A program made the translations under genes and the position numbers. From Betaproteobacteria bacterium (GTDB taxonomy: Bacteria > Pseudomonadota > Gammaproteobacteria > Burkholderiales > SG8-41), in assembly GCA_025356695.1 (NCBI GenBank), contig JANXSE010000231.1, positions 1-14,346 on the forward strand: a stretch of DNA of 14,346 bases, given 5' to 3'. Below the pieces are notes generated by a model. It did no database searches. It saw only the letters and a list, made by a program, of their open reading frames with translations, and had not been told where the DNA came from. Below are positions 1 to 13,955 of the stretch, in pieces (position 1 is the stretch's first letter; the number at the start of each line of letters is the position of its first letter).

Positions 1-334
1 CGATGTGCATGCCGGCGATGCCGGTGCGCTCGAGTTCTTTGACCGAGCGCATCACGTGCAGGGGCTCGCCGAAACCGGTACCGGCATCGACGAACACCGG
101 AATCTTCACCGCCGAGGTGACGTAATGACAAAGCGTCGCCAACTCGGTCAGCGTCATCAGCGGTTCGCTAATCGCCGTGCCGACGCCGGCCTGATAGCCG
201 CCGATGTGCACGCACTCGACGCCCATCGATTCGCACACGCGCGCCGACAGCGGATCCCAGATGCCCAGCGCCTGGATATAGCCCGGCTTGACAAGCAATT
301 GGCGGAAACGGGCGGGACCATTCAACTGACTCAT
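1..334 (-). CDS. Isocitrate lyase/PEP mutase-family protein, N-terminal part (cut by window edge)
   Basis: Reading the minus strand from an ATG at 334 gives 111 codons running off the left edge with no stop. A good Shine-Dalgarno (AGGAG, 7 bases before the ATG) fixes the start. The translation matches the beginning of the ICL/PEP mutase superfamily: an early WDPLSAR segment (26-32), a VHIGGYQAG stretch (42-50), then VFVDAGTGFGEP (80-91) and GIAGMHI (105-111), where the family usually continues with Glu-Asp. These enzymes are TIM-barrel, Mg-dependent C-C or C-P lyases/mutases acting on 2-oxo or hydroxy di/tricarboxylates (methylisocitrate lyase, oxaloacetate decarboxylase, PEP mutase). The usual D-x-D metal motif appears as D83-A-G85, so the second Asp is missing, as I recall for some proteobacterial members. 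It lies 51 bases downstream of a Bug receptor gene and is probably co-transcribed with it. The family is well supported; the substrate is unknown. Confidence 0.8.
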   Translation of the reverse strand, partial: MSQLNGPARFRQLLVKPGYIQALGIWDPLSARVCESMGVECVHIGGYQAGVGTAISEPLMTLTELATLCHYVTSAVKIPVFVDAGTGFGEPLHVMRSVKELERTGIAGMHI

Positions 335-385
335 CTTGCTTCTCCTTTGGATTTTATTGCCGCGACCTTGGTGCGTGATGCGGGT

Positions 386-1342
386 TCATTCAACCTTGAT
401 ACCTGAATCCTTGATGACTTTGTCCCATTTCGCGTGCTCGGTCTTGATGAAGGCCGTGAACTGCTCGGGCGAACTGCTCAATGACAATTCATCGCCGAGC
501 TGGGTCAATCTAGCTTTCATATCGGATGTTTGCATCGCCTTGACGATCTCACTGTGCATACGCGCGACGATCTCGCGCGGCGTCGCCGCCGGCGCCACCA
601 TCGCAATGAACAAACCGGCTTCGTATCCGGGCAGCGTCTCGCTGATCGCCGGCACCCCGGGCAGCAGCGCCGAGCGTTTCGGGCTCGACACGCCGAGCGC
701 GCGCAGGCGGTTCGTGTTGATATAAGGCAGCATCGGTCCGATCGCGCCGAAAAACAGCTGCACCTGGCCGCCAACGGTGTCGATCAGCGCCGGCGCGTTA
801 CCTTTGTAGGGAATGGCGTTGGTGCGGATGCCGGCGCGGCGGTTGAATAATTCGGTGGCAAGATCGCCGACCGAGGCAGTACCGGCGGAGGCGTAATTGA
901 TTTCGCCGGGCCGCGCTTTCGCCAGCGCGATAAATTCCCTGACATTTTTCGACGGCAGCGACGGATGCACCACCATCAGTTGCGGCAGCCATGCCAGCTG
1001 GCTGACGCCGGTGAAATCGCGCAAGGGATCATAGGGCACGCGCGACAACAGCGACGCCGTCAGAAAGGTGCTCGCCATCATGAGGAAGGTGTAACCGTCT
1101 GCCGGCGCCCTGGCGACATATTCGGTGCCGACCACACTGTTGACACCGGGCCGGTTTTCGACAATCACCTGCTGACCGAGCGACTCAGTCAACTTCTGCG
1201 CCATCGAACGCGTGACGATATCGAGATTGCCGCCGGCGGCGAGCGGAATGATCAAACGCACCGGCTTGAGCGGATAACCCTGCGCGACCGCCGCGCCTGC
1301 CGTGACCGCACATACTGCCAGCGCTGCGACTATCCGCCTCAC
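386..1342 (-). CDS. Bug/TctC-family tripartite tricarboxylate transporter substrate-binding protein
   Basis: This is a periplasmic receptor of the Bug family, which usually binds carboxylated organic solutes. I chose the GTG at 1342 because it opens directly onto a signal peptide (VRRIVAALAV core, cleavage after AVA, residues 18-20) and gives 318 residues, the usual Bug length. The open frame extends back to 1465 with non-signal-like sequence, and another GTG lies at 1363. An AGGAG lies about 11 bases upstream of the chosen start, which is rather far. Family marks: the ligand loop PLAAGGNLD with D41, a QQVIVENRPG stretch, VVHPSLPSKN, KARPGEINYASAG and IPYKGNAPALIDTVGGQVQ, with a C-terminal GIKVE. 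It is followed by the lyase-family gene at 334, which suggests the receptor and lyase serve the same solute. No membrane transporter subunit is adjacent. The ligand cannot be predicted. Confidence 0.9.
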   Translation of the reverse strand: MRRIVAALAVCAVTAGAAVAQGYPLKPVRLIIPLAAGGNLDIVTRSMAQKLTESLGQQVIVENRPGVNSVVGTEYVARAPADGYTFLMMASTFLTASLLSRVPYDPLRDFTGVSQLAWLPQLMVVHPSLPSKNVREFIALAKARPGEINYASAGTASVGDLATELFNRRAGIRTNAIPYKGNAPALIDTVGGQVQLFFGAIGPMLPYINTNRLRALGVSSPKRSALLPGVPAISETLPGYEAGLFIAMVAPAATPREIVARMHSEIVKAMQTSDMKARLTQLGDELSLSSSPEQFTAFIKTEHAKWDKVIKDSGIKVE

Positions 1343-1450
1343 GAAATATTCCGCTCCTCGCACGTTGGTCGAGTGATTTTTTTGCACTAACACATCGTCA
1401 CCGCACCGGACGGCGCAATGAATGCGGATTCGAACCGGGCAGCATCGCGT

Positions 1451-1479
1451 TTGACATTCAAGCATCGCTTATTCATCAT
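1451..1479 (+). promoter_or_regulatory. Candidate sigma70 promoter for the MmgE/PrpD operon
   Basis: A perfect TTGACA (1451-1456) is followed after 17 bases by CATCAT (1474-1479, 4 of 6 matches to TATAAT). It would start transcription near 1486 in the divergent gap 1343-1573. The same gap has TATAAC on the plus strand (1515-1520), which overlaps a perfect TATAAT on the minus strand (1518-1513). Neither of these has a convincing -35. Several AT-rich boxes in a GC-rich background suggest divergent promoters here, but which is used is not decidable by eye. Confidence 0.35.
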
Positions 1480-1573
1480 CGCGCTTGCAGTCATCGAGTG
1501 TGCCGCCGGACAATTATAACCGCTACACCGCGCTGCCCGCGATAGTCGCAACCCGTCTGCCCAAGGAAATCCG

Positions 1574-2917
1574 GTGAGAAGAATTACGCGCGAACTTGCG
1601 CGCTACGTGCATACCTCGCGCTTCGACGCCTTGCCGCCGGCGGTGCGCCGCGAAGGCGTGCGTGCCTTCGTCAACTGGGTCGGCTGCGCGGCGGGCGGCT
1701 CGCGCGAGGACAACGTCGCGCACCTTGTGGCGGTGCTTGCCGAGTACAACGGCGCGCGCGACAGCAGCGTGGTCGGTTACCACGACAAGCTCGACATGTT
1801 GAACGCCGCCTTCATCAATGCGATGAGTTCGGCCGCACTGGCCTTCAATGACACGCACTACGCCACCGTCGCGCATCCGACCAGTCCGGTGGCGGCGGCG
1901 CTGCTGGCACTCGCCGAACGTCAGCCGATGAGCGGTGTGGATTTTCTGCATGCCCTGGTCCTCGGCATCGAAATCCAGTGCCGAATCGGCAACATTCTTT
2001 TCAGCAAACCCGCCGAATGCAATATCGGCCTGTCGATGGCCGGACTCGTCGGCGGCATCGGCGCGGCCGTTGCCACAGCAAAAGCGATGGGCCTCAATGA
2101 AACCGGTATCGCCACCGCGCTCGGCCACGCTGCCAATCAAGCCGGCGGCCTGCGCGAATCGCACACCACCATGGGCAGCCAGTTCACGCCAGGCCACACC
2201 GCGCGCTGCGGCCTGATGTCAACGCTGCTGGCGGCGCGCGGCTTCACCTGTGCCGACACCATGCTCGAAGGCGAAAAGGGTTTCGGTGTGTCGTTTGCCT
2301 CGAATCCGAATATGGAAGCGGCGGTGGAGGGCCTCGGCAAAACATTCGAAATCGCCACACTCGCCTACAAACCCTATCCCTGCGGCTTCGTTGTCCATCC
2401 GACTATCGATACCTGCGTCGATCTGGCGCGCGACAACGCGTTTAATCCCGAAGACATCGCACGCGTCGAATTAACCGTGAGCGCGCTTGCCGCGCAACTC
2501 GCCGACCGGCCGGAACTGACTGACCGCAACCAAACGCTAGTCAGCCTGCAACACTGGGCGGCGGCAACGTTGATCTGCAAGAGCGCGGGTCTCGCACAAA
2601 TGGACAACGCGATCGTACACGATCCGGCCGTCGCAAGGCTCCGGCGCAAAGTCAGCGTTACGGTCGCTGCCGCTTTCGGCACTGAAGCGGCAGCGACGCG
2701 TATCGTGCTGAAGAACGGTCAGACGTTCGACGCGCGCGTCGAGCATTGCCGCGGCAGCATCGGTCGCCCGCTGACCGACGACGAGCTCACGGAAAAAACC
2801 CGCGGCCAATGCCGGCTGGTGTTCGCCGAAGAACAGATCGAACATTTGATCGATGAAGCTTGGCGCATTGAACAATGCGGCGCGGTCGGCACCTACGTCG
2901 CCAAGCTTGCAACCTGA
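1574..2917 (+). CDS. MmgE/PrpD-family protein (2-methylcitrate dehydratase-like)
   Basis: A 447-residue protein with the full length of the MmgE/PrpD family, whose members include 2-methylcitrate dehydratase, cis-aconitate decarboxylase and iminodisuccinate epimerase. These are metal-free enzymes acting on polycarboxylates. Visible signatures: NDTHYATVAHPTSPVAAA (H101 in the HPTSP motif), FTPGHTARCG (H208), LEGEKGFGVSFA, and YKPYPCGFVVHP (265-276), where the Lys/Tyr region is close to the known active site. The GTG start is supported by AAGGA six bases upstream (1563-1567); no signal peptide, so cytoplasmic. It leads an operon: the next ATG is 3 bases after its TGA. The partner reductase and lactonase suggest a catabolic route other than the methylcitrate cycle, since no prpB/prpC neighbours are seen. 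Precise activity is unassigned. Confidence 0.9.
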   Translation: MRRITRELARYVHTSRFDALPPAVRREGVRAFVNWVGCAAGGSREDNVAHLVAVLAEYNGARDSSVVGYHDKLDMLNAAFINAMSSAALAFNDTHYATVAHPTSPVAAALLALAERQPMSGVDFLHALVLGIEIQCRIGNILFSKPAECNIGLSMAGLVGGIGAAVATAKAMGLNETGIATALGHAANQAGGLRESHTTMGSQFTPGHTARCGLMSTLLAARGFTCADTMLEGEKGFGVSFASNPNMEAAVEGLGKTFEIATLAYKPYPCGFVVHPTIDTCVDLARDNAFNPEDIARVELTVSALAAQLADRPELTDRNQTLVSLQHWAAATLICKSAGLAQMDNAIVHDPAVARLRRKVSVTVAAAFGTEAAATRIVLKNGQTFDARVEHCRGSIGRPLTDDELTEKTRGQCRLVFAEEQIEHLIDEAWRIEQCGAVGTYVAKLAT

Positions 2918-2920
2918 GCA

Positions 2921-3976
2921 ATGGCTGCAACGAACACCGCCGTCATCGCCGGCGCCTCCGGTCTGATCGGGCGCCGTATCGCCGATCAACTGCTCGCCGA
3001 CGGCGGCTGGAACGTCATCGGACTCGCGCGCCGCGCACAAACCCGACCCGGCATGCAATGGATAGCCGTCGATCTCGCCGACAAGACCGACGTCGAAAAG
3101 AAACTAAACGGCATTGCGGCGACGCATATCTTCTATGCCGCGCGTTACGATCATCCGGTCGAAGGCAAAACCGAAGATATCGACACCAACAGCAGCATGC
3201 TTGCCAATCTCGTCGTGACCATCGAAGCGACAGGCAAACTTGAACACGTACATGCGCTGCACGGCAGCAAGTGGTACGGGCATCAACTCGGGCCCGTAAA
3301 ACTGCCGCTCGAAGAAGACCTCAGCGCGCGTTCACCCAACGACAATTATTATTTCGTGCAGGACGCGTTCCTGCGCGAACAGAGCAAGGGTAAATCATGG
3401 TCGTGGTCAACTTCGCGCCCGCACGCCTTCTGCGATCCGTCGGTTGATCTGCCGCGCTCGGCGGGGCTGGTCATCGCGGTGTATGCCGAAGTGCAACGCG
3501 AACTCGGCCTGCCGCTGGATTTTCCCGGCAATGCCAAAGGCTATCAGGCGCATACCCAGTTCACCGATCTCGGCCTGCTCGCGCGTTCGATCGCTTGGAT
3601 GGCGACCGAGCCGTGCTGCCGCAATCAGGCCTTCAACGTAGTCAACGGCGACAACCCGCGCTGGTGCGAACTGTGGTGCAGCTTCACCGGCTGGTTCGAT
3701 ATGAAAGAAGGCGAACCGCGCGCGATTAAACTCGCCGATTACATGGTCGACAAGGGTGCGGTATGGGATGCGGTGGTAAAAAAGCACGGCTTGCGCGCCC
3801 CGCCGCTCGACAAAATCGCGCTGTGGGCCTACGGCGATTATCAGTTCCGCCCCGACTGGGATATTTTTTCGTCGATGCAAAAAGCGCGTGCGCTTGGTTT
3901 CAACGAAAGCGTCGATTCAACCAAAATGTTCACGCGGCAGTTCGAGAACTATCGCCTGCAAAAAATAATTCCCTGA
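2921..3976 (+). CDS. PRISE-like short-chain dehydrogenase/reductase
   Basis: A 351-residue extended SDR. The N-terminus carries a Rossmann dinucleotide-binding loop, GASGLIG (residues 11-17). Later come HGSKWYGHQLGP (K117) and NYYFVQD (142-148). These resemble the G-x-K-x-Y-G...GP and N-F-Y-Y-x-x-E-D motifs of the PRISE group (progesterone 5-beta-reductase/iridoid synthase-like). PRISE enzymes use the Tyr of the latter motif and the Lys of the former for NADPH-dependent reduction of enone C=C bonds. The C-terminal half (WCELWCSFTGWFDM and following) fits the substrate lobe of that group. It is translationally linked to the upstream MmgE/PrpD gene (3-base gap) and followed after 10 bases by the SMP-30 gene. 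I infer 1,4-enone or carbonyl reduction in a catabolic pathway; the substrate is unknown. Ordinary NAD(P)-dependent epimerase is the alternative. Confidence 0.82.
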   Translation: MAATNTAVIAGASGLIGRRIADQLLADGGWNVIGLARRAQTRPGMQWIAVDLADKTDVEKKLNGIAATHIFYAARYDHPVEGKTEDIDTNSSMLANLVVTIEATGKLEHVHALHGSKWYGHQLGPVKLPLEEDLSARSPNDNYYFVQDAFLREQSKGKSWSWSTSRPHAFCDPSVDLPRSAGLVIAVYAEVQRELGLPLDFPGNAKGYQAHTQFTDLGLLARSIAWMATEPCCRNQAFNVVNGDNPRWCELWCSFTGWFDMKEGEPRAIKLADYMVDKGAVWDAVVKKHGLRAPPLDKIALWAYGDYQFRPDWDIFSSMQKARALGFNESVDSTKMFTRQFENYRLQKIIP

Positions 3977-3986
3977 GGAGATCGTA

Positions 3987-4898
3987 ATGTTCGCACCGCC
4001 CGCCATTATCCAGACCGAAGTCTTCGCCCGCGTACCCGACAAACTGCATTGCAGCCGGCACTCCGAATGGGTGGCGGCGCGCCAGTACGGCAAGCTCGGC
4101 TCCTTCCTCGAAGGCCCGTCGTTCGACCGTGACGGCAATCTCTATTGCACCGACATTCCGTACGGCCGCATTTTCCGCGTCTCACCGAAAGGCGAATTCG
4201 AAGTGGTCGCCGAATACGACGGCGAACCGAACGGTCTGAAGATACACAAGGACGGCCGCATTTTTATCGCCGATCATCGCAAGGGCCTGCTGCTCTGCGA
4301 CCCCGCAAGCGGCAAAGTCACGCCGATACTCGAATCCGCGCATTCCGAGGGTTTTCGCGGCCTTAATGACATGATCTTCGCGAAAAACGGTGACCTGTAT
4401 TTCACCGACCAGGGCCAGACCGGTTTGCAGGACCCGACCGGCCGCGTTTACCGCCTGCGCGCCGACGGCACGCTGAACTGCTTGATGCGCAATATCCCCA
4501 GCCCCAACGGCATCGTGCTCGACAAAGACGAACGCAACCTGTTCGTCAACGTCACACGCGCCAACGCCGTGTGGCGCGTGCCGCTGCTCGCCTCGGGCGA
4601 CGTCACCAAGGTAGGTGTCTTTCTGCAACTCTCCGGCGGCACCGGCGGCCCCGACGGCCTCGCACTCGACGAATCCGGCGGCCTCAGCGTTGCCCATGCC
4701 GGCTTCGGCTGCGTGTGGATCTTCGACAAACTTGGCGAACCGCTCTACCGCGTAAAATCCTGCGCCGGCCACGCCACCACCAACATAGCCTACGGCGGCG
4801 CCGACCGCAAAACGCTCTACGTCACCGAATCGTCGTCAGGGCAGATTTTGATGGCCAAAGTGCCGGTGACGGGCAGCGTTTTATATTCACATCAATAG
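3987..4898 (+). CDS. SMP-30/gluconolactonase-like hydrolase
   Basis: A 303-residue six-bladed beta-propeller of the SMP-30/gluconolactonase/LRE type. The four metal-ligand positions of the family are present: E42 in EGPSF, N127 in GLND, N174 in SPNG and D223 in GPDG. Repeated blades of the D-x-x-G-N/D-L-Y type are evident (DRDGNLYCTD, AKNGDLYFTD, DKDERNLFVN). Family members hydrolyse sugar or other lactones with a divalent metal, and some hydrolyse organophosphate esters. The ATG is preceded by GAGGAG and lies 10 bases after the SDR stop; no signal peptide is seen. As the last gene of the PrpD-SDR-SMP30 operon it probably opens a lactone produced or consumed by its partners (inference). No clear terminator follows. 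Confidence 0.88.
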   Translation: MFAPPAIIQTEVFARVPDKLHCSRHSEWVAARQYGKLGSFLEGPSFDRDGNLYCTDIPYGRIFRVSPKGEFEVVAEYDGEPNGLKIHKDGRIFIADHRKGLLLCDPASGKVTPILESAHSEGFRGLNDMIFAKNGDLYFTDQGQTGLQDPTGRVYRLRADGTLNCLMRNIPSPNGIVLDKDERNLFVNVTRANAVWRVPLLASGDVTKVGVFLQLSGGTGGPDGLALDESGGLSVAHAGFGCVWIFDKLGEPLYRVKSCAGHATTNIAYGGADRKTLYVTESSSGQILMAKVPVTGSVLYSHQ

Positions 4899-5024
4899 AC
4901 GACGCAGCCAAGCGGTATGCATGCGCTACCCCGGAATACGCTGCGCTCCTTCCTGGCTACATTTTGGTTATGGACAATCTAACGAATAGCGGACGGATCG
5001 GGGTATCGGCCATTGGAGCCAGGA

Positions 5025-5050
5025 TGTAAGGAATCGCCGCCACCCCCGAC
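5025..5050 (+). promoter_or_regulatory. Possible ECF-sigma promoter for the MxKDx-repeat gene
   Basis: TGTAAG (5025-5030), 16 bases, then CGAC (5047-5050). This resembles the GTAAC-type -35 and CGA-type -10 of some ECF sigma factors that control MxKDx/DoxX/DUF692 loci. It would give a leader of about 90 bases carrying the palindromes at 5068-5119. There are no good sigma70 boxes nearby. The call rests on a loose motif match and could be chance. Confidence 0.28.
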
Positions 5051-5067
5051 TACTCCTCGTCCGGTGC

Positions 5068-5119
5068 CATGCGTACGCATGTGCCGGCCGCAGTGCACTG
5101 TGCGGGTGTTAACGCCCGC
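5068..5119. repeat. Cluster of three palindromes in the leader of the MxKDx gene
   Basis: Three dyads sit back to back. A perfect 14-bp palindrome lies at 5068-5081 (CATGCGTACGCATG) and a perfect 10-bp one at 5091-5100 (CAGTGCACTG). An 18-bp one lies at 5102-5119, centred on GTTAAC, with a single G:T mismatch. They could be operator sites or mRNA structure just upstream of the ribosome-binding site. Confidence 0.6.
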
Positions 5120-5148
5120 CGATTTCAACCTTTCGAGAGGATTTTCCA

Positions 5149-5364
5149 ATGAAGAAGCTGATTACCATGGTGTTTGCCGGCTGTATGGCTGTTTCGATGT
5201 CGGGCGCATTCGCTGCAGACAGCATGAAAAAAGACGAGATGATGAAGAAAGACGACATGAAGAAGGACAGCATGGCCAAGGACGGCATGATGAAGAAGGA
5301 TGAAATGAAAAAAGACAGCATGGCCAAAGACGGCATGATGAAAAAAGACGACATGAAGAAGTAG
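5149..5364 (+). CDS. Pentapeptide MxKDx-repeat exported protein
   Basis: A 71-residue protein. Residues 1-22 are a classic signal peptide (MKKLITMVFAG start, AFA|AD cleavage). The mature part is almost entirely M, K and D in MKKDx / MAKDG / MMKKD units, which is the signature of the pentapeptide MxKDx repeat family of small periplasmic proteins. Function is unknown for the family; the alternating Met and charged residues suggest metal binding or stress-related roles (inference). The ATG is preceded by GAGAGG 8 bases upstream. It is monocistronic: a strong terminator starts 10 bases after the stop. The mature sequence consists of tandem 48-bp copies that differ almost only at silent third positions. 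Confidence 0.88.
   Translation: MKKLITMVFAGCMAVSMSGAFAADSMKKDEMMKKDDMKKDSMAKDGMMKKDEMKKDSMAKDGMMKKDDMKK
5257..5352 (+). repeat. Two tandem 48-bp coding repeats
   Basis: Units 5257-5304 and 5305-5352 each encode MKKDSMAKDGMMKKD plus E or D. They differ at 7 of 48 bases, all third positions, and only the final E/D is a coding change. A partial third copy (MKK) ends the gene, and shorter related units precede it. Confidence 0.9.
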
Positions 5365-5374
5365 CAGGCAGCAA

Positions 5375-5436
5375 GGCTGCGCCTTCCGCGGCGGTCAGCA
5401 GCCCGCCGCGGCCTCTCTCCGGGCGCAGCCGTTTTT
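5375..5436 (+). terminator. Strong intrinsic terminator after the MxKDx gene
   Basis: A nested hairpin: outer 9-bp perfect stem (5375-5383 with 5422-5430, GGCTGCGCC) and inner 9-bp perfect stem (5386-5394 with 5403-5411, CCGCGGCGG) around an 8-base loop. It is followed by G and five T (5432-5436). Confidence 0.85.
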
Positions 5437-5473
5437 CCCGACGCCCACCCGACGCACCACTCTGATCGCGCCG

Positions 5474-5482
5474 TGCCATAAT
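5474..5482 (+). promoter_or_regulatory. Extended -10 promoter candidate for the amidohydrolase gene
   Basis: TG-C-CATAAT (5474-5482) is an extended -10 with 5 of 6 matches to TATAAT. It lies after the terminator and 46 bases before the ATG at 5529. No good -35 is seen, as is usual for extended -10 promoters. Confidence 0.45.
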
Positions 5483-5528
5483 CTTTCCCCGCCCATCAGG
5501 GCACAGAACAAAATAACCGGGGGAGTCT

Positions 5529-6614
5529 ATGAGCACACGCAGAGAATTCATCAAGCAGGCGGCGAGCGCCGCCGGCGTCGTTTTCACCGGCTGTAACGTG
5601 CCGGGCTTTGCGCACGCGCAAGGCGCACGCCGGCAAACCATCATCAACGGCCGCCGCATCAAAACCATCGACATCCACGCGCACTGCGCGATCCCCGAAG
5701 CGATTGCGCTGACCGGGCGCGACCCGAAGTCCGTGCTGCCGCAATCGACGCGCGGTTCCGACGAAGCCATCATCGTCTTCGAGCAGCGCCTGCGCGCGAT
5801 GGACGCACAGGGCATCGACATGGAGGCGCTCAGCATTAATCCGTTCTGGTACGGTATGGAGCGCGACCTCGTCGGCAAAATCATCGAGGTGCAGAACGAA
5901 AAGCTCGCCGAACTGTGCGGCAAACATCCGGACCGTTTTGTCGCGTTCGCTTCACTCGCCCTGCAATACCCGGATCTGGCAGTGCAACAGCTGGTCGATG
6001 GCGTCAAAAAATACAATCTGCGCGGCGCGGCGATCGGCGGCAATGTCGCCGGGCTCGAATTCGCCAATGCGAAATTTCATCCGGTGTGGGCGAAGGCCGA
6101 AGAGCTCGGCGTGCTGCTGTTCATCCATCCTTCGAGCCCGGCGGAACTCGCCAACCGCTACAAAGGCAACGGCTGGCTGTCGAACGCGATCGGCAATCCG
6201 CTCGACACCACGATCGCGCTGTCGCACCTGATATTCGAAGGCACGCTGGATAAATTCCCCGGCCTCAAAATCTGTTCAGCGCACGGCGGCGGTTTCCTGC
6301 CCTCCTATGCGCCGCGTTCGGACCGTTCGTGCATGGTGTCGCCGGCGGGTTGCGATCCGAACATCAAGCTGAAGAAAAAACCGACCGAATACCTGCGCCA
6401 GATGTATTTCGACGCACTGGTGTTCACGCCGGAGGCGCTGCGCCACCTTGCGGCCGAAGTCGGCAGCAGCCAGCTCATGCTCGGCACCGACTATCCCTAT
6501 CCGTGGGAAGACAAGGGGGTCGAGCATATTCTCAATACGCCGGGTTTCAGCGACGACGAACGCATCGCCATGTTGAGCGGGACCGCGGCGAAGCTGCTCG
6601 GCATCAAAATCTAG
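5529..6614 (+). CDS. Tat-exported amidohydrolase (ACMSD/gamma-resorcylate decarboxylase-like)
   Basis: 361 residues. The N-terminus has a twin-arginine motif, TRREFIK (residues 3-9), a hydrophobic stretch and an AHA cleavage site (28-30). This indicates Tat export of a folded metalloprotein. The mature part is an amidohydrolase-2 TIM barrel: H50-A-H52 in DIHAHC, H200 in HPSSP, H252 in AHGGG and D321 in GTDYPYPWED, the metal and catalytic positions of the ACMSD-like group. These enzymes decarboxylate or hydrolyse aromatic or ring-cleavage acids. A GGGGGAG ribosome site precedes the ATG. It stands alone between two terminator-like hairpins. The cysteine at 22 (TGC) could hint at a lipoprotein, but the preceding Phe is a poor lipobox. 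Family secure; substrate unknown. Confidence 0.87.
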   Translation: MSTRREFIKQAASAAGVVFTGCNVPGFAHAQGARRQTIINGRRIKTIDIHAHCAIPEAIALTGRDPKSVLPQSTRGSDEAIIVFEQRLRAMDAQGIDMEALSINPFWYGMERDLVGKIIEVQNEKLAELCGKHPDRFVAFASLALQYPDLAVQQLVDGVKKYNLRGAAIGGNVAGLEFANAKFHPVWAKAEELGVLLFIHPSSPAELANRYKGNGWLSNAIGNPLDTTIALSHLIFEGTLDKFPGLKICSAHGGGFLPSYAPRSDRSCMVSPAGCDPNIKLKKKPTEYLRQMYFDALVFTPEALRHLAAEVGSSQLMLGTDYPYPWEDKGVEHILNTPGFSDDERIAMLSGTAAKLLGIKI

Positions 6615-6629
6615 CGGCTGCCGGCTGGC

Positions 6630-6654
6630 GCCGCCGGTGCGGAACACCGGCGGC
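6630..6654 (+). terminator. Hairpin after the amidohydrolase gene
   Basis: Perfect 10-bp stem (GCCGCCGGTG, 6630-6639, with 6645-6654) and a CGGAA loop, 16 bases past the stop codon. No T-run follows, so it may be a weak or Rho-assisted terminator or an mRNA 3' stabiliser. Confidence 0.5.
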
Positions 6655-6683
6655 TTGCCATTCCGCGCGCACTGCGCTAGCTT
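6655..6683 (+). promoter_or_regulatory. Candidate promoter for the Bug-flavoprotein-Bug operon
   Basis: TTGCCA (6655-6660, 5 of 6) with a 17-base spacer to TAGCTT (6678-6683, 3 of 6). A 7-bp dyad (GGCTGAC, 6710-6716 with 6720-6726) lies downstream in the leader and could be an operator or a small hairpin. The weak -10 limits confidence. Confidence 0.3.
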
Positions 6684-6759
6684 CTGTAAAAACAAGACCG
6701 GTAGCGACGGGCTGACTCGGTCAGCCGATAGATCGCACCGGCAAATCGACTGAGGAGTC

Positions 6760-7761
6760 ATGCCGTTGTTTCGTTTTACCGCCGCGGTAATTTGCGCAGC
6801 TGTCTGCCTGTTTGTGACAGACACGACGAACGCACAGGTCACCGCGCCGGCCGCATCGCCGCCCGCATCTCCGCCCGCATCTCCGCCCTATCCGTCAAAA
6901 CTGATCCGCATCGTCACCGCCGCAACCGGCAGCGCCAACGACTGGGGTTCGCGCGTGCTCGCGCAGGAATTGACCGCCAGTATGGGCCAGCAGGTGATCG
7001 TCGAAAATCGCGCCGGCCTCAGCATGGAGTACGTCGCCAAATCGCCGCCCGACGGCCACACCATCCTCGGCTACGGCAGCGCAGCGTGGCTCACCCAGTT
7101 TCTGCGCGACGGTGTGACCTGGGATGCGGCGCGCGACTATGCGCCGGTCACACTGGCGATGAGCGCGCCGAACATCCTGGTCGTGCATCCATCGCTGCCG
7201 GTGAAATCGATGCGCGAACTGATCACGCTGGCGAAAGCGCGGCCGGGTCAGTTGAATTACGCCGCCGGCACCATAGGTGCTGCACCGCATCTGGCGAGCG
7301 AACTGTTCAACGCGATGGCCGGCGTCAACATCGTGCGCATCGCCTACAAAGGCACCGGGCCATCGGTGATCGCGCTGATCGGCGGCGAAGTGCATATGAT
7401 GTTCGCCGGCACCGGTTCGATCAATCCGCATATCAAGACCGGCAAAGTGCGCGCGCTCGCCGTCACCAGCCTCAAACCGTCGGCGCTGGCGCCCGGCCTG
7501 CCGACCATCGACTCGATGCTGCCCGGCTACGAATCGACTTCTATGCTCGCGATCTTTGTGCCGGCGAAGACGCCGCCGGTGATCGTAGCCCGCCTGCAGC
7601 AGGAGATCGCGCGCGCGGTGCACAAGCCCGAGGTCAAGGAACTGCTGTTCAACGCCGGCGTCGACAGCAACGGAACTTCAACCGAGGACTTCGCGGCGTT
7701 CGTCAAAGCGGACACGCTGCGCATGGGCGAAGTCATCCGCAAAGCCGGCATTCGAGAATAA
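6760..7761 (+). CDS. Bug/TctC-family substrate-binding protein (first copy of the operon pair)
   Basis: 333 residues with an N-terminal signal peptide (LFRFTAAVICAAVCLFV core) followed by a proline-rich linker of three PPAS units. The ligand loop reads ATGSANDWGSR (D61) where most Bug proteins have GGxxD; the copy at 9271 shares this variant. Other family marks: QQVIVENRAG, VVHPSLPVKS, KARPGQLNYAAG, AYKGTGPSVIALIGGEV, and a C-terminal RKAGIRE. GAGGAG lies only 2 bases before the ATG at 6760; the TTG two codons later (6766) has better spacing and may be the real start. It is first in an operon with the flavoprotein 25 bases downstream, which suggests it captures the substrate that enzyme oxidises (inference). 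Confidence 0.9.
   Translation: MPLFRFTAAVICAAVCLFVTDTTNAQVTAPAASPPASPPASPPYPSKLIRIVTAATGSANDWGSRVLAQELTASMGQQVIVENRAGLSMEYVAKSPPDGHTILGYGSAAWLTQFLRDGVTWDAARDYAPVTLAMSAPNILVVHPSLPVKSMRELITLAKARPGQLNYAAGTIGAAPHLASELFNAMAGVNIVRIAYKGTGPSVIALIGGEVHMMFAGTGSINPHIKTGKVRALAVTSLKPSALAPGLPTIDSMLPGYESTSMLAIFVPAKTPPVIVARLQQEIARAVHKPEVKELLFNAGVDSNGTSTEDFAAFVKADTLRMGEVIRKAGIRE
6853..6888 (+). repeat. Three tandem 12-bp repeats encoding a Pro-rich linker
   Basis: Units GCATCGCCGCCC, GCATCTCCGCCC and GCATCTCCGCCC are adjacent and encode repeats of A-S-P-P between the signal peptide and the binding domain. The paralog at 9271 lacks them. A short tandem run of this type can change length by slippage. Confidence 0.85.
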
Positions 7762-7786
7762 CGTTTAACCCTAGAAGGAAAGCAAG

Positions 7787-9268
7787 ATGGCAGACCAGGA
7801 ACACCATTACGACGTGCTGATCGTCGGCGGCGGCAACGCCGCATGCTGCGCGGCGCACGCCGCGCTGGAAAAAACCTCCAGCGTCGCCATCATCGAGAAA
7901 TCGACGCTGCGCGACCGCGGCGGCAACAGCGCGATGACCGGCCACATCCGCTTCGTCTTCAACGGCATCGAAGACCTGCGCCCGCTGGTGCGCGGCATGT
8001 CGGATGACGAACTGCGCAAGCTGCTCGACTGCGGCCTGCCGCATCGCACCGAAGCCGAGGTGTGGGACGAACTCATGCGCGTCACCAACAACCAGAGCGA
8101 TCAGGAACTCTTGCAGGTGCACGTCACCGAATCGCTGAAGACCGTGCAGTGGCTGGCGAGCAAAGGCCACGACTGGGTGCCGGCGAGCATGACCAATGAC
8201 AACGTGCTGACCATGAACGGAGGCGGCGCCGGCCTGCAAAAACGCAACTTCGCGATTCTGGAAAAAGCCAAAGTCGCGTTTCACTACGAAACCGCCGCGG
8301 TCGAGTTGATTCAGAACCAACAGGGACGCGTGATCGGCGTCACGGCGCTGACGCCGCAGGGCTTTGCGAAGTTCTTTGCAAAATCGGTGGTACTGGCCTG
8401 CGGCAGCTTCGAAGCCAACGCCGAAATGCGCGCGCGCTACCTCGGCCCCGGCTGGGATATGGTGCATGTGCGCGGCGTGCCGTTCAACACCGGCGATGGA
8501 TTGAAGATGGCAATGGATATCGGCGCCATGCCGCACGGTAGCTGGAGCACCTGCCACGCTTCGCCGCAGGATATCGCGCTGCCGAAGTTCACCGTGCCGA
8601 GCGTGCATGTGCACGGCGACAGCCTGAACCGCTATATGTATCCGTACGGCATCATGGTCAATCAGAACGGCGAGCGCTTCATCGACGAAGTGTGGGAGAC
8701 GCGCGGGCGCACCTACGCGAGCATGGGCCGCGCAATTCTGTCGCAACCGGGCGGTGTCGCGTATCAGATTCTCGATGCCAAGATCCGCAAGATGGAGCTC
8801 TACACCTCGAACTATCGCAAAGCCACGCACGCCAAAGCCGACACGCTGGAAAAACTCGGCGAAGAACTCGGCATCAACGTGCCGAATTTCGTCAAGACCG
8901 TGCGCGAATTCAACGCCGCGGTGCTGCCCGGTAAATACGATCCCGACCGCCACAAACTCGACGGCAAGGGCACCCAGGGGATTTATCCGCCGAAATCGAA
9001 CTATGCGCTCGAAATCGACGAAGGTCCTTTCGAAGCGTGGCCGGTGCGTTGCGGTATCACCTTCGCTTTCGGCGGGCTCAAGATCGAGGCGAAAACCGGC
9101 CAGGTGCAGCACGTCGCCGGGCGACCGATCCCGGGGCTCTATGCGGCAGGCGAAATGGTCGGCGGTCTGTTCGTCGGCGGTTACGGCTCGGGCTCGGGCA
9201 TGATGTCGGGCGCGACCTTCGGGCGCGTTGCCGGCAACGCGTCGGGGCTGGCCGCGGTGCAGAGCTAA
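7787..9268 (+). CDS. FAD-dependent dehydrogenase, TcuA/fumarate-reductase flavoprotein-like
   Basis: 493 residues of the FAD-binding 2 family. Residues 10-17 (VLIVGGGN) form the dinucleotide-binding loop. R44-G-G-N-S48 is typical of tricarballylate dehydrogenase-type proteins. PFNTGDGLKMAMDIGA and the C-terminal GLYAAGEMVGG (about 450-459), then VGGYGSGSGMMSGATFGR, complete the FAD fold. Relatives oxidise tricarballylate, or reduce fumarate or 3-oxosteroid-type double bonds. Here there is no signal peptide, heme domain or iron-sulfur partner, so it is a cytoplasmic single-subunit enzyme. AAGGAAAG precedes the ATG. It sits between two paralogous Bug receptors (25 bases after one, 2 before the next), so a carboxylate taken up by them is the likely substrate. 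I do not use the name tcuA because TcuB/TcuC partners are absent. Confidence 0.88.
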   Translation: MADQEHHYDVLIVGGGNAACCAAHAALEKTSSVAIIEKSTLRDRGGNSAMTGHIRFVFNGIEDLRPLVRGMSDDELRKLLDCGLPHRTEAEVWDELMRVTNNQSDQELLQVHVTESLKTVQWLASKGHDWVPASMTNDNVLTMNGGGAGLQKRNFAILEKAKVAFHYETAAVELIQNQQGRVIGVTALTPQGFAKFFAKSVVLACGSFEANAEMRARYLGPGWDMVHVRGVPFNTGDGLKMAMDIGAMPHGSWSTCHASPQDIALPKFTVPSVHVHGDSLNRYMYPYGIMVNQNGERFIDEVWETRGRTYASMGRAILSQPGGVAYQILDAKIRKMELYTSNYRKATHAKADTLEKLGEELGINVPNFVKTVREFNAAVLPGKYDPDRHKLDGKGTQGIYPPKSNYALEIDEGPFEAWPVRCGITFAFGGLKIEAKTGQVQHVAGRPIPGLYAAGEMVGGLFVGGYGSGSGMMSGATFGRVAGNASGLAAVQS

Positions 9269-9270
9269 CC

Positions 9271-10215
9271 ATGCTGCGCGTTCGGATTTTTTTATTCGCG
9301 ATCGCCGCGTCGCTCGCCGCAGCGCCGGTGTTCGCGCAAAACTTCCCGAACAAAGTCATCCGTATCGTCACCGCTTCACCCGGCAGCACCAACGACTGGG
9401 GCGCCCGGTTGATCGCGCAGGAGATGACAAAAAGCATGGGCCAGCAGGTGATCGTCGAGAACCGCGGCGGGTTATCAGTCGAGTACACCGCGAAGTCGCC
9501 GGCCGACGGTTACACGCTGATGTTCTACGGCAACACCGTCTGGCTGCTGCCCTTCCTGCGTGAAAACGTCGGCTACGATCCGCTGCGCGACCTGGCGCCG
9601 GTCACACTGGCAATCATTTCACCGATCATCGTCGTCGTGCATCCTTCGGTACCGGTGCGCTCGATCAAAGAATTAATTGCGTTCGCCAAAGCCAGGCCGG
9701 GGCAGCTCAACTACGCTTCAGGCACGATAGGCGCCTCGCCGCATCTGGCCACAGAACTCTTCAAAGCGATGACACGCACCGACCTCGTACGCATTCCGTA
9801 CAAGGGCACCGGCCCGTCGGTGATCGCGCTGGTCGGCGGTGAAGCGCATCTGATGTTCACTGCACTCGGTTCGGTTGCAACGCACCTGAAAACCAGCCGC
9901 TTGCGCGCGCTGGCGGTGGCGACCTCCAAACCGTCGGCGCTGGCGCCTGAATTGCCGACTGTCGCCTCGACAGTGCCGGGCTATGAAGCGCTATCGATCA
10001 TCGGCATGTTCGCGCCGGCCAAAACGCCGACCGCCATCGTCAATCAGTTGCAGCAGGAAATCGCGCGCGGCATCAACCGCCCCGAGGTCAAGGAGTTGTT
10101 CACCAATGCCGGCGTCGAGGTCATCGCCAGCACGCCTGACGAATTTACCAACGTGATCAAATCCGAAATGTCACGCCTCGGCAAAGTCATCAAGGACGCC
10201 GGTATCCACGAATAA
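9271..10215 (+). CDS. Bug/TctC-family substrate-binding protein (second copy of the operon pair)
   Basis: 314 residues from the ATG at 9271, which opens on a signal peptide (LRVRIFLFAIAASLAA, cleavage after FAQ or VFA). The frame is open back to 9037, but that part overlaps the flavoprotein and is not signal-like. The ATG is 2 bases after the flavoprotein stop with no clear ribosome site, so translation is probably coupled. The protein aligns end to end with the Bug at 6760, sharing SMGQQVIVENR, KARPGQLNYA, YKGTGPSVIAL and KPSALAP and the unusual ligand loop SPGSTNDWGAR (D42). I estimate about 60% identity by eye. The two arose by duplication, and both may feed the intervening dehydrogenase with related ligands. 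Confidence 0.9.
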   Translation: MLRVRIFLFAIAASLAAAPVFAQNFPNKVIRIVTASPGSTNDWGARLIAQEMTKSMGQQVIVENRGGLSVEYTAKSPADGYTLMFYGNTVWLLPFLRENVGYDPLRDLAPVTLAIISPIIVVVHPSVPVRSIKELIAFAKARPGQLNYASGTIGASPHLATELFKAMTRTDLVRIPYKGTGPSVIALVGGEAHLMFTALGSVATHLKTSRLRALAVATSKPSALAPELPTVASTVPGYEALSIIGMFAPAKTPTAIVNQLQQEIARGINRPEVKELFTNAGVEVIASTPDEFTNVIKSEMSRLGKVIKDAGIHE

Positions 10216-10248
10216 CCGCGCGGCCGCACTTGCGGTGAACGGTTTTTT
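10214..10248 (+). terminator. Possible intrinsic terminator after the Bug-flavoprotein-Bug operon
   Basis: Outer AACCG (10214-10218) pairs with CGGTT (10240-10244), and inner CCGC/GCGG (10224-10227 with 10232-10235) encloses ACTT. The structure ends in six T (10243-10248). The stem is interrupted, so it is probably leaky. It overlaps the stop codon. Confidence 0.45.
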
Positions 10249-10284
10249 CGGGTTTGATGCCGGACTCGACACGAGGAATGCCCG

Positions 10285-11265
10285 ATGAAAACCACGAATA
10301 TTGTCTGCGCGTCATGCATTGCCGCGCTCGCCGCACCCGCCCTCGCACAGAAAACCGACGCGGCGGCAAATTTTCCCAGCCGCCCGATTCGCATCGTCGT
10401 CGGCTTCACGCCGGGCGGCCAGCCGGACATTTACGCGCGTTTCATTCAGGCCAAACTCGGCGAAGTACTGCATCAGCAGGTGGTGGTCGACAATCGCCCG
10501 GGTGCCGGCGGCATCATCGGCACGCAGATCGTCGTCGATGCGACACCCGACGGCCATACACTGCTCTCCGTTTCATCGGCGCATGTCACCTCACCCGCGG
10601 TGCGCGCGAAGATGCCCTACGACACGCTGAAGGATCTCGCCGGCATCACGCTGACGGCAAACGCGACCTATGTGCTGGCAGCGACGCCATCGCTCAACAT
10701 CAAAACGGTGCAGGAACTGATTGCATTGGCCAAAGCAAAACCGGGCCAGATCAATTTTTCCTCGGCAGGTTCGGGCAGCGGCACCCACTTCGCAGGTGAA
10801 ATGTTCAAGCAAAGCGCCGGCATCGATGTCGTGCACATTCCGTTCAAGGGGATACCCGAATCGCTCACCGATGTGATCAGCGGCCGCGTGCAGTTCACAA
10901 TGGCGCCGATTGCAAGCTCCGTCTCGCTGATCAAGGAAGGCCGTCTGCGCGCGCTCGGCGTCTCATCGAAAAAACGCTCGTCGCTATATCCGGAGTTGCC
11001 GACCATTGCCGAGCAGGGCATTACCGGTTTTGAGTGGGATTCCTGGGGCGGGCTATTGGCACCCGCGAAGACACCACGCGCCATCATCAACAAACTCAAC
11101 CGTGAAGTCGTGAAAATACTCGCCATGCCTGAGATCGTCGAAAAACTGCGCGCGCTCGGCGCCGAAGCAAACCCGACCACACCGGAAGAAATGGATGCCT
11201 ATGTCGCGCGCCAGCTGAAAACAGCAATGCAGCTGGCGAAAAAAGCCGGCGTCGAACCGCAATAG
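10285..11265 (+). CDS. Bug/TctC-family substrate-binding protein
   Basis: 326 residues. The signal peptide (MKTTNIVCASCIAALAAPA, cleavage near LAQ) is followed by a canonical Bug fold. The ligand loop GFTPGGQPDIYAR carries the usual GGxxD (D48), unlike the two upstream paralogs. Further marks: QQVVVDNRPGAGGIIGT, MPYDTLKDL, KAKPGQINFSSAGSGSGTHFAGEMFK, IPFKGIPESLTDVISGRVQF. The ATG has GAGGA 7 bases upstream. It follows the previous operon by 69 bases and a possible terminator, so it may have its own expression or depend on read-through. It converges on the minus-strand Bug gene with only 3 bases between stop codons. Divergence from the pair at 6760/9271 suggests a different ligand. Confidence 0.92.
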   Translation: MKTTNIVCASCIAALAAPALAQKTDAAANFPSRPIRIVVGFTPGGQPDIYARFIQAKLGEVLHQQVVVDNRPGAGGIIGTQIVVDATPDGHTLLSVSSAHVTSPAVRAKMPYDTLKDLAGITLTANATYVLAATPSLNIKTVQELIALAKAKPGQINFSSAGSGSGTHFAGEMFKQSAGIDVVHIPFKGIPESLTDVISGRVQFTMAPIASSVSLIKEGRLRALGVSSKKRSSLYPELPTIAEQGITGFEWDSWGGLLAPAKTPRAIINKLNREVVKILAMPEIVEKLRALGAEANPTTPEEMDAYVARQLKTAMQLAKKAGVEPQ

Positions 11266-11268
11266 TTT

Positions 11269-12222
11269 TTAATCGCCCTTGATGCCGGCCTCACGTATCA
11301 ACTTGCCCCACTTCACCATTTCGGCACCAATGAATGCCGTTGTCTCTTTTGGCGTCATCGTGCCGGCATCGAAGCCGCCATCGAACAAACGCGCTGCGAT
11401 ATCGGGCTGTTTGTAGACTGCGGCGAATTCCTTTTGTAGCTGCTCAACGATGCGCGCCGGTGTTTTCGCCGGCGCGAGCGCCGCAAACCAACCGTCAACG
11501 ATGTAGTCTTTTAATCCCGATTCGACGGCGGTCGGAATCTCCGGCGCAACCGGCGTGCGTTTGGCGCCGAGCACCGCAATCGCGCGCAGGCGGCCGCCTT
11601 TCACGAACGGCAAGGCCGCGCCCAGCGCCGTCGACAGCACCTGCACCTGCCCCGCCACCACCGCTGCGTTTGATGCGCCGGCGCCCTTGTACGGCACCGA
11701 AATCATTTCGACCGCGGCCATGCGCTTGAACAATTCCATGGCAAGGTGGCCGCTGGTGCCGATGCCCGAGGTACCATAAGCCAGCCCGCCGGATTTTGCT
11801 TTCGCCAGCGCAATCAATTCGCGCAGATTGTTGGCCGCCACCGCCGGATGCACCACCAGCACGTTGGGCTGCGAAGCAAGCACGGTGATGGCGGCAAAAT
11901 CCTGCGGTGTGCGGTACGGCAGCTTGTCGTAGAGAAACGGATTTGCCGCATAACCCAGCGCGACCACCAGCAGCGTATGGCCATCCGGATCGGACTTGGC
12001 GACGATTTCGCTGCCGATGATGCCGCCCGCGCCCGAACGATTGTCGATGACCAGCGGATGGCCCCAGCGTTCGGGCAGTTTCTGCGCCAGCAGGCGCGAC
12101 AGAATATCGAGCGCGCCGCCCGGTGTTGACGGCACGACGATGCGCACCGGGCGTTGCGGAAAGTCAGCGGCCTGCGCCGCCGCGCATACAGCAAGCAATA
12201 ACAACAAAACGGGTTTTTTCAC
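11269..12222 (-). CDS. Bug/TctC-family substrate-binding protein, divergent from the selenoprotein gene
   Basis: 317 residues from the GTG at 12222. That start has GGAGAA 6 bases upstream (12229-12234) and opens on a textbook signal peptide (VKKPVLLLLLAVCAAAQA, cleavage AQA|AD). The frame is open back to 12363, but those extra residues are not signal-like and would overlap the opposite gene's start. The ligand loop is VVPSTPGGALDILSR (D39). Other marks: DNRSGAGGIIGSEIV, LPYRTPQDFAAITVL, VVHPAVAANNL, KAKSGGLAYGTSGIGTSGHLAMELF, VPYKGAGASNAAVVAGQVQV, C-terminal EAGIKGD. It shares a 131-bp divergent promoter region with the selenoprotein gene, so the two may be co-regulated and functionally linked (inference). 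Confidence 0.92.
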   Translation of the reverse strand: MKKPVLLLLLAVCAAAQAADFPQRPVRIVVPSTPGGALDILSRLLAQKLPERWGHPLVIDNRSGAGGIIGSEIVAKSDPDGHTLLVVALGYAANPFLYDKLPYRTPQDFAAITVLASQPNVLVVHPAVAANNLRELIALAKAKSGGLAYGTSGIGTSGHLAMELFKRMAAVEMISVPYKGAGASNAAVVAGQVQVLSTALGAALPFVKGGRLRAIAVLGAKRTPVAPEIPTAVESGLKDYIVDGWFAALAPAKTPARIVEQLQKEFAAVYKQPDIAARLFDGGFDAGTMTPKETTAFIGAEMVKWGKLIREAGIKGD

Positions 12223-12256
12223 AGCGACTTCTCCGTTGATGACCGGTAGCGCCGGT

Positions 12257-12262
12257 ATTGTA
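12257..12262 (-). promoter_or_regulatory. Candidate -10 box for the minus-strand Bug gene
   Basis: TACAAT on the minus strand (5 of 6), 34 bases upstream of the GTG at 12222. No good -35 is visible. An ACCGG/CCGGT dyad with a 5-base spacer (12242-12256) lies immediately downstream and could be an operator or leader hairpin. Confidence 0.33.
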
Positions 12263-12289
12263 GCGCGCGCCTCGTAACAGATACGCCGG

Positions 12290-12318
12290 TTGCCCGTCGC
12301 CGCAAATTCGATTAAGTT
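12290..12318 (+). promoter_or_regulatory. Weak promoter candidate for the selenoprotein gene
   Basis: TTGCCC (12290-12295), a 17-base spacer and TAAGTT (12313-12318), 36 bases before the ATG at 12354. Both boxes are poor matches, but they lie in the only AT-rich part of the gap. Confidence 0.25.
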
Positions 12319-12353
12319 CGATCCATCCCGCATGCCGCACACCGGAGAAACAC

Positions 12354-13955
12354 ATGGCCGCAAACATCAACGTCTACGACCCGACCGCAGCCGCCGGCGA
12401 CGGCCCGCAACTCGCGCGCCGCACGCTGACGAGCCTCAAGGGCAAAACGGTCGGCTTTATCGACAACGCTAAACCGAACTTCAATTTTCTGGTTGAAGAC
12501 CTGAGCCGCGAATTGATGGAGAAACACGGTGTCAAGGCGGTGATCAAACAGCGCAAACGCGGCGCCTCGATACCCGCCGAAGAATCGATGATCCGGGAGA
12601 TCGCGGCGGCCTGCGACGTCGTCATCACCGGCTCCGGCGACTGAGGGGCCTGCACGTCGTGGAGTATCCACGACAATGCTGAAGTGACCAAACTAGGACC
12701 GCTCGCCGTCACCGTCTGTTCGAGCGCCTTCCTCAAACTCGGCCGCGCTCAGGCTGCGGCCTGCGATTTTCCCGATCTGCCGATCGCGGTGGTGCCGCAT
12801 CCGTTCAGCAACCGTTCGCGCGAACAGGTGCGCGAGCTCGCCGAAAAATGCGCCAACGACATCGTCCAACTGATCACCAGCGCCGGCGATACCGCTTCAA
12901 GCACGCGCACAACAAATGCAAAACGCGCGACAACCATCGAAGTCGCCAACGATCTCGCCGCCGTCAACGCGCTCTACATGCAAAAACGCTGGGGCGACGG
13001 CCTGCCGATCGTGCCGCCGACACCCGAGCGCGTGGACGCGATGCTGCGCGCCAACAAATGCAAAGCCGATGACGTCGTTGCGCGCGTAGCACCCGGTTTT
13101 GGCAGCGCCAGCGTCGAGCGCATCGCCATCAACGCGGTAATGGCAGGCTGCGAACCAGCGCATCTGCCGGTGCTGATTGCTGCAACCACAGCGGTCACCG
13201 GTCGCGAATTCAATCTCCAGGGCGTGCAAACCACCACCGATCCGGTCGCCGTCTGGCTGATCGTCAACGGCCCGGTGGCACAACAGCTCAATATGAACAG
13301 CGGCGCGAATTGCCTCGGCCAGGGCAACTGGGCCAACGCCACGCTAGGTCGCGCTTTGAGATTAATCCTGCAGAACATCGGCGGCGCCCTGCCCGGTGAA
13401 ATGGATCGCGCGACGCAAGGCCAACCCGGAAAGATCGCCTTCTGCTGCGCTGAAAACGAAAACGAAAATCCGTGGCAGCCGCTGCATGTCGAGCGCGGCT
13501 TCAAGCGCGAACAAAGCACCGTCACCGTGGTCGGCGCCGAAGGTACGATGAATATGCACAGCTATGGCAAAAACGCGGACGATATCCTGCGCGTGTTCGC
13601 CGACACCATGGCGCACGGGCCGAGCAACGAATACGTGCACGGCGGCGAGCCGTGGATCGTCTTGTCGCCCGAACACGCCGAGATCCTGCACGACGCCGGT
13701 TACAGCAAAGCCGACGTGCAGGCGAAATTATGGGAGCATTCGAAAATGAAAGCCGGCCGCATGACACCGGAGGACATGGGCCGCGCGCAGGCCTCGCGCA
13801 CAGCTGCATATGGCCCGATCGACGCCGACACACTGCTGACCATCGCACATACACCGAAAGACATCGCCATCATCGTCGCCGGCGGCCCCGGTGCGCATAC
13901 AGTTTACATTCCCTGCTTCGGCAATACGCGGTCGGTGACGCGTGCAATTGATTGA
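12354..13955 (+). CDS. UGSC-family selenoprotein with in-frame TGA (Sec97)
   Basis: One frame runs from the ATG at 12354 (GGAGA 5 bases upstream) to the TGA at 13953, 533 residues, if the TGA at 12642-12644 is read as selenocysteine. The first 96 residues and the part after the TGA form one UGSC domain: GFIDNAKPNFNFL (about 34-46), CDVVITGSGD (87-96), Sec97-G98-A99-C100-T-S-W-S-I-H-D, then LAVTVCSSAF. UGSC proteins carry Sec or Cys at this position in a U/C-G-S-C motif, presumably a redox centre paired with Cys100. From about residue 200 a second conserved region begins (RWGDGLPIVPPTPERV, 212-227; CC at 364-365; PCFGN near the end), commonly found with UGSC in long family members, as I recall. 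Its function is unknown. No signal peptide. It is divergent from a Bug gene and followed by two membrane-protein genes. Read conventionally, the second part has only a GTG (12684) with no ribosome site. Confidence 0.88.
12652..12679 (+). promoter_or_regulatory. Bacterial SECIS hairpin for Sec insertion
   Basis: A perfect 7-bp stem (GTCGTGG 12656-12662 with CCACGAC 12668-12674) closes a 5-base loop AGTAT whose second base is G. Below it, GCA (12652-12654) pairs with TGC (12677-12679) across a small 1x2 internal loop. The loop begins 18 bases after the TGA. This meets the usual bacterial SECIS description: a hairpin just downstream of the UGA, loop about 16-37 bases away, G in the first two loop positions. 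It would bind SelB during translation. It is also coding sequence (residues 99-109). Confidence 0.85.

Follow-up and report, generated by a model that had tools for sequence, protein, structure and literature searches.

A predicted selenoprotein gene of the UGSC family with a fused partner domain, and its multicopy relatives in uncultured Betaproteobacteria

Organization of the locus

We analysed a 14,346-nucleotide stretch of DNA from a Betaproteobacteria bacterium (assembly GCA_025356695.1, contig JANXSE010000231.1; the whole stretch is called the window here), in which a predicted selenoprotein gene of the UGSC family is located at 12354–13955. Standard translation divides this region into two open reading frames (ORFs), one of 96 residues (12354–12644) and one of 423 residues beginning at a GTG (12684–13955); translated with TGA as a residue, the region encodes 533 residues and closes with a TGA stop, the only other TGA being codon 97. 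An earlier annotation made from the sequence alone (the first-pass annotation) had proposed that the TGA at 12642–12644 links two parts in the same frame without a frameshift, and the window translation confirms this. The features of the gene are as follows.

12354–13955, forward strand: predicted complete selenoprotein gene, 533 codons plus a TGA stop, with selenocysteine (Sec) as codon 97 (translation, profile matches and homologue alignment)
12642–12644, forward strand: in-frame TGA predicted to be read as Sec, U97 of a U-G-A-C motif (translation and homologue alignments)
12344–12347, forward strand: probable ribosome-binding site GGAG, 6 nucleotides before the ATG (sequence by eye)
12372–12872, forward strand: UGSC domain (Pfam match and AlphaFold2 model)
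12656–12674, forward strand: hairpin resembling a selenocysteine insertion sequence (SECIS), with a stem of 12656–12662 paired with 12668–12674 and an AGTAT loop at 12663–12667 (folding and stem counts)
12945–13943, forward strand: C-terminal partner domain, fused to UGSC in the window protein (domain comparison)

The downstream part was said to lack a ribosome-binding site, and by eye none is visible just before the GTG at 12684. Standard annotation was also expected to fragment the protein, and this is what we observe: besides the division into ORFs of 96 and 423 residues, none of the 120 best database matches listed for the window protein (its own predicted protein included) contains the Sec motif, and these matches measure 304–458 residues, none covering more than 80% of the query. 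The description of the gene as a hidden selenoprotein is thus apt for the annotation of the window copy but not for the family, which had been described by 2008 according to the accessible text of that report (PMC2398784).

Family assignment and conservation of the TGA codon

The protein had been assigned to the UGSC family, and it passes the Pfam cut-off comfortably, scoring 153.7 bits against PF24696 (gathering cut-off 25) over positions 2–171 of the 172 in the model. Similarity extends to both sides of the TGA, as the first-pass annotation had claimed. Each half matches on its own, both with PF24696 (E 8.6e-19 for the 96-residue half and 5.4e-17 for the 436-residue half) and with NCBIfam NF041046 (2.2e-11 and 4.1e-15 respectively); the halves match adjacent parts of the UGSC models, and the joined protein gives a full-length match (6.9e-45 and 1.3e-35). 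Its NF041046 score of 122.6 bits misses the equivalog cut-off of 125 by 2.4 bits, and we therefore file the protein under the Pfam family and not under the NCBI equivalog. The third residue of the motif is alanine, giving UGAC and not UGSC; the U-x-x-C pattern itself is almost invariant. Third-position differences predominate on both sides of the TGA when the window gene is compared with five relatives, and no indel column falls within the first 100 against four of the five; the nine indel columns against the remaining relative (L005) are codons trimmed off its start before the comparison. Three other window genes, and the selenoprotein gene itself, terminate at a TGA, and tryptophan is encoded by TGG in the window genes; because TGA is an ordinary stop elsewhere in the window, we take the genetic code to be unaltered.

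A scan of one genome per species (84,980 species) with six peptide patterns yielded 62 loci (L001–L062). TGA occupies the site in every one of the 75 tblastn alignments that span it, one of which is the window's own. When the window and 127 loci, these 62 among them, were searched with a profile, 133 matches were obtained, of which 130 were aligned and three with scores of about zero were omitted; the 130-row set contains the genes of the 75 tblastn alignments. At the Sec column 128 rows have TGA, one has Cys (L110), and one is gapped at a break containing N (L023). A further 28 loci from two genomes (L148–L175) contributed 34 rows, 32 with TGA and two gapped at the Sec column. The context ITGSGD-U-GACTSWSIHD had been placed at the Sec/Cys position of UGSC, and this is where TGA is aligned in the homologues; a proposed check for homologues with Sec or Cys at position 97 recovered both, TGA in these 128 of 130 rows and Cys in a clade with uninterrupted genes. 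With the Cys copy L110 as query, all 120 of the best-listed proteins read CGLCT at the site and have UGSC and the partner domain in one chain, and in an alignment with 16 of them their Cys falls on codon 97. These 120 homologues are a single clade picked by a Cys query, and show that Cys versions exist rather than how frequent they are. They are longer proteins (600–700 residues in 110 of the 120 listed), and many of those aligned begin with a stretch that by eye resembles a signal peptide, so they may be exported. Other departures occur among paralogues: L124 and L126 read UGSST and UGTSA and are without the second Cys, and in two distant stop-free copies of genome G009, L180 (C76) and L181 (C80), the Sec site is occupied by Ala and the motif Cys is missing; their partner domain is intact, and they are possible Sec-less offshoots.

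A hairpin follows the TGA codon

Bacterial SECIS elements are characterized by a hairpin just after the UGA with a G in the first two bases of the loop. We folded the 48 bases from the TGA in 109 distinct relatives and compared them with synonymous-codon shuffles, obtaining a mean z of −1.6 with 68% of values below −1; control stretches from the same genes (n = 99) have a mean z of −0.24 with 24% below −1. The Mann-Whitney p of 7.6e-14 for this difference overstates the case, because related sequences are treated as independent, and the folding signal of the window's own hairpin is modest (z −1.58). Stems of at least five pairs are present in 106 of the 109 distinct 48-mers after the TGA, and of at least six pairs in 104, as against 635 of 2180 shuffles. 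In 99 the loop begins 18–20 nucleotides downstream of the UGA, and all 106 stems have a G within the first two loop bases. Pair 21–27 is G-C in 74 of the 48-mers and C-G in 33. When counted in a fixed register, at least six of seven pairs form in 85 of 109 (the main type), other types being shifted by about one base. The stem is kept in many paralogues that have different residues after the Sec, as in GCCCGC/GCGGGC of L018 versus GTCGTGG/CCACGAC of the window. Four distant paralogues (L066, L107, L108 and L124) show no folding gain over shuffles.

Selenocysteine machinery

Genomes with homologous loci almost always encode the means of Sec insertion. SelA is over the cut-off in 46 of 47 genomes, the exception (G005) having a fragment at a contig start; SelB is over the cut-off in 46 of 47, with that of G036 in pieces on two contigs; and tRNA-Sec is over the cut-off in 45 of 47, not being found in G016 and G025. 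For SelD, 48 of the 52 genomes searched pass the cut-off, the exceptions being G030, G034, G182 and G384. All of selA, selB, selC and selD are over the cut-off in the four nearest relatives (G001–G004), and it is from the relatives' genomes that we infer selABCD in the window's own organism. In a draw of 369 genomes from the class of G001, UGSC was present in six (five with TGA and one with Cys) and SelA was over the cut-off in 17. SelA is present in four of the TGA genomes, namely G138, G361, G379 and G001, on which the draw was centred; the fifth, a 2.0-Mb assembly (G182), lacks it. G384, the genome of the Cys copy L110, has no SelA match and no SelD over the cut-off. As a separate observation, most high-scoring SelD rows from the 52 genomes searched contain one TGA, and for this reason the selenophosphate synthetase of these genomes is probably a selenoprotein too.

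From these sequence comparisons we conclude that the window very probably carries one functional selenoprotein gene, in which the UGA at 12642–12644 is read as Sec by way of the hairpin at 12656–12674, and which joins a UGSC selenodomain to the partner domain.

Pairing of UGSC with a partner domain

No Pfam family and no sequence relative in the PDB was found for the partner domain. Its conserved residues include D215, C266, R333, C364 and E367. Among 129 distinct UGSC copies (one duplicate dropped), the partner is fused in 42, encoded by a separate downstream gene in 49 and by an upstream gene in 33, and not in view in five, all of which are at contig or locus ends. The partner thus accompanies 124 of the 129 copies, as a separate neighbour in 82, and because it is either fused or encoded by a neighbouring gene we interpret the window fusion as one arrangement of a two-part system. 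In the separate-gene arrangement the UGSC gene ends about 80 codons past the Sec. The pairing count is partly biased, since L001–L062 were found by patterns of which four of the six lie in the partner domain; among L076–L127, found by the UGSC model alone, a visible partner is missing only in L077 and L098, both at contig ends, and the partner domain is present in 27 of the 28 loci L148–L175.

Copy number

UGSC genes are greatly expanded in some uncultured Betaproteobacteria. Matches number from 4 to 58 per genome in the 47 genomes, a count that scored only part of the candidates in the richest genomes. All 71 candidates were scored in G009 (5.7 Mb), giving 58 UGSC matches, of which 51 contain exactly one TGA, three have a further TAA or TAG and four are stop-free; all 60 were scored in G010, giving 40 matches, of which 37 contain exactly one TGA, one has a further TAA or TAG and two are stop-free. 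Some of these matches are partial, and TGA at the Sec codon, which the listing does not show, was seen in those fetched copies for which an alignment at that position was possible. Both genomes are bins in which chimerism is possible, and each contains SelA once. For comparison, the largest bacterial selenogenome that we found in the literature comprises at least 46 genes, all families counted (PMC12013277), and a 2016 survey has a table giving 26 and 33 for UGSC, which we take as organisms and genes (PMC5029168); the single genome G009 has 58 UGSC matches. The active site, copy number and partner of UGSC proteins are easy to miss because gene prediction cuts them at the UGA. In the literature passages that we covered, we found no report of this UGSC expansion, of the two-gene arrangement or of a link to GrdB. 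Nine of the loci (L003, L026, L030, L040, L041, L042, L048, L050 and L059) come from metagenome-assembled genome records titled Bordetella parapertussis that resemble environmental Betaproteobacteria and are probably mislabelled.

Gene neighbourhood

The genes nearest to the selenoprotein gene are as follows.

11269–12363, reverse strand: TctC-type solute receptor, divergent, beside the selenoprotein gene; ORF as listed, with the true start probably further in (ORF list and synteny)
10285–11265, forward strand: TctC-type solute receptor (family match)
9262–10215, forward strand: TctC-type solute receptor (family match)
7787–9268, forward strand: FAD_binding_2 flavoprotein, syntenic with the selenoprotein gene in L001 and L002 (family match and synteny)
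6760–7761, forward strand: TctC-type solute receptor (family match)

The cluster of the flavoprotein, the TctC genes and the selenoprotein is conserved in L001 and L002. TctC receptors are numerous in these bacteria. Their genes reach a density of 0.29 per kb within 2 kb of UGSC, and 0.13, 0.12 and 0.10 per kb beyond; one lies within 500 nucleotides in 43 of 63 loci, and none is in view in 13. The loci were fetched by similarity to the window protein, and the TctC link is no proof of function. From 2 to 12363 the window encodes five TctC-type receptors together with MmgE/PrpD, phosphoenolpyruvate mutase, amidohydrolase, SMP-30 and FAD-protein genes, a set that looks like a carboxylic-acid breakdown cluster. 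A small ORF at 5149–5364 has a signal-peptide-like start and MKKDxM-type repeats.

Fold and kinship with GrdB

When a UGSC profile is compared with one built from the Sec domains of three GrdB-type and eight GrdB-like (U-P-N-C) proteins, the match has a probability of 95.5% (E 1.4e-8), Sec aligning on Sec, and a match to four GrdB proteins alone has a probability of 77.0% (E 2.1e-5). One UGSC gene (G023:C114) was also recovered in a search with a GrdB model (E 8.8e-4). The window protein gives no TIGR01917, TIGR01918 or PF07355 match up to E 10, in a search in which the HMMER filters drop most matches above 0.1. These comparisons suggest that UGSC is a remote relative of the GrdB Sec core. GrdA is present in only three of the 52 genomes searched (G007, G009 and G015), with none in G001–G004, and most UGSC systems therefore do not hand over to GrdA. 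The AlphaFold2 model of the UGSC domain (pLDDT 89.7) is a five-strand flavodoxin-like alpha/beta sandwich in which the Sec sits between the strand 89–93 and the helix 98–113; thioredoxins are absent among the 50 VIA rows listed for the model, an absence that is no proof.

Two further groups of selenoproteins were seen. Sixteen loci (L132–L147) encode a second GrdB-like family with the motif U-P-N-C-T-C (U-P-N-C-T-G in L144), and L128, L129 and L130 encode GrdB-type proteins with UGTSTRCG, in which Ser replaces the Cys of U-x-x-C.

Alternative explanations

A lone stop in an otherwise open frame is the usual appearance of a pseudogene or a sequencing error, in which a sense codon has mutated or been misread to TGA. 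Every one of the 75 alignments, drawn from many assemblies, shows this TGA, differences are rich in third positions on both sides of it, and individual genomes contain repeated UGSC copies with one TGA; the conserved TGA refutes this explanation, whose probability we put close to nil. Two genes, with the UGSC N-terminal part stopping at the TGA and a second protein made from the GTG at 12684, are what the gene callers predict, and the Sec motif is missing in all 120 database matches listed. However, the TGA lies inside a conserved motif, no ribosome-binding site is visible by eye at 12684, the Cys homologues are continuous through the site, and stand-alone UGSC genes end some 80 codons after the Sec, so that two genes are very improbable. 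If TGA had come to encode one of the standard amino acids in this lineage, a frame that reads through in the fetched relatives would be accounted for, but the selenoprotein gene and three other window genes end at TGA, tryptophan is encoded by TGG, and a tRNA-Sec over the cut-off occurs in 45 of the 47 genomes of relatives. The ordinary use of TGA as a stop refutes such a reassignment, to which we give next to no weight.

A different kind of alternative accepts the selenoprotein and makes it an ordinary thiol-redox enzyme, a peroxidase or disulfide reductase working through a U97–C100 selenenylsulfide. The nearly invariant U-x-x-C motif favours this, and in the accessible portions of two reports (PMC2398784, PMC13188914) UGSC is grouped with redox selenoproteins, a thioredoxin-like fold having been guessed in 2008. 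The AlphaFold2 model is instead flavodoxin-like, with no thioredoxin among the VIA rows listed (which is no proof), the profile kinship is with GrdB, and L124 and L126 do without the second Cys; moreover, near-constant pairing with the partner and transporter-receptor neighbours fit a metabolic enzyme better. We regard a thiol-redox enzyme as unlikely, although far from negligible.

A tentative mechanism and comparison with known systems

GrdB paralogues devoted to single acids, including fluoroacetate, are known from the text of PMC10838667 available to us, and it is on these that our proposal of a GrdB-like mechanism for UGSC proteins is modelled. SelB and Sec-tRNA would decode the UGA at 12642–12644 as Sec, directed by the hairpin at 12656–12674. 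The UGSC domain might then act in the manner of the Sec core found in glycine/betaine/sarcosine reductase protein B, with the U97 selenol attacking the activated carbon next to a carboxylate, and the selenium adduct could be resolved by Cys100 of U-x-x-C or by cysteines of the partner domain, which would provide the substrate site. The TctC-type receptors encoded alongside would import the acid, and the many paralogues may represent substrate-specific versions of one chemistry. Taken as a whole, the idea that an imported carboxylic acid undergoes a GrdB-like attack by the selenol is a tentative proposal that we hold with somewhat less than even confidence. A little more doubtful is the broader possibility that UGSC and its partner constitute a second, GrdA-independent GrdB-type lineage, a toolbox of dozens of substrate-specific selenoenzymes, many with their own TctC-type receptors, for carboxylic-acid breakdown in uncultured Betaproteobacteria, and among the largest selenoproteomes known. 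If the GrdB-like chemistry is true, selenium would be of great importance to the breakdown of carbon by these bacteria, and a family without known function since 2008 would become testable via its neighbours.

The window gene is a further member of a known selenoprotein family. Since the UGSC family, including a fusion to an unknown domain, was described in 2008 (accessible text of PMC2398784), the selenoprotein reading itself is not new; what is added is the two-part arrangement, the remote kinship with GrdB, the flavodoxin-like model and the large copy number. With PF24696/NF041046 the window protein shares a strong whole-length domain match, Sec at the family Sec position and the U-x-x-C motif; it differs in its UGAC motif, its score under the NF041046 cut-off and an extra second domain of about 335 residues. 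The UGSC/Unknown_1 fusion of the Global Ocean Sampling selenoproteome likewise joins a UGSC selenodomain to a conserved domain that is uncharacterised (PMC2398784), and Unknown_1 is likely to be the partner domain described here.

With GrdB (TIGR01917/TIGR01918, PF07355) the UGSC proteins have in common a U-x-x-C-type motif and a Sec-on-Sec profile match, and GrdB is known to occur as several substrate-specific copies within one genome (PMC10838667). The window protein differs in having no match to the GrdB models and another accompanying domain, and GrdA was not found in 49 of the 52 genomes. The closest parallel to the proposed role is fluoroacetate reductase FarB of Cloacibacillus, a GrdB-type selenoprotein paralogue for one carboxylic acid whose gene lies beside a transporter; FarB is a genuine homologue of GrdB, and its host is an anaerobe that has GrdA (PMC10838667), whereas UGSC would be only a remote relative.
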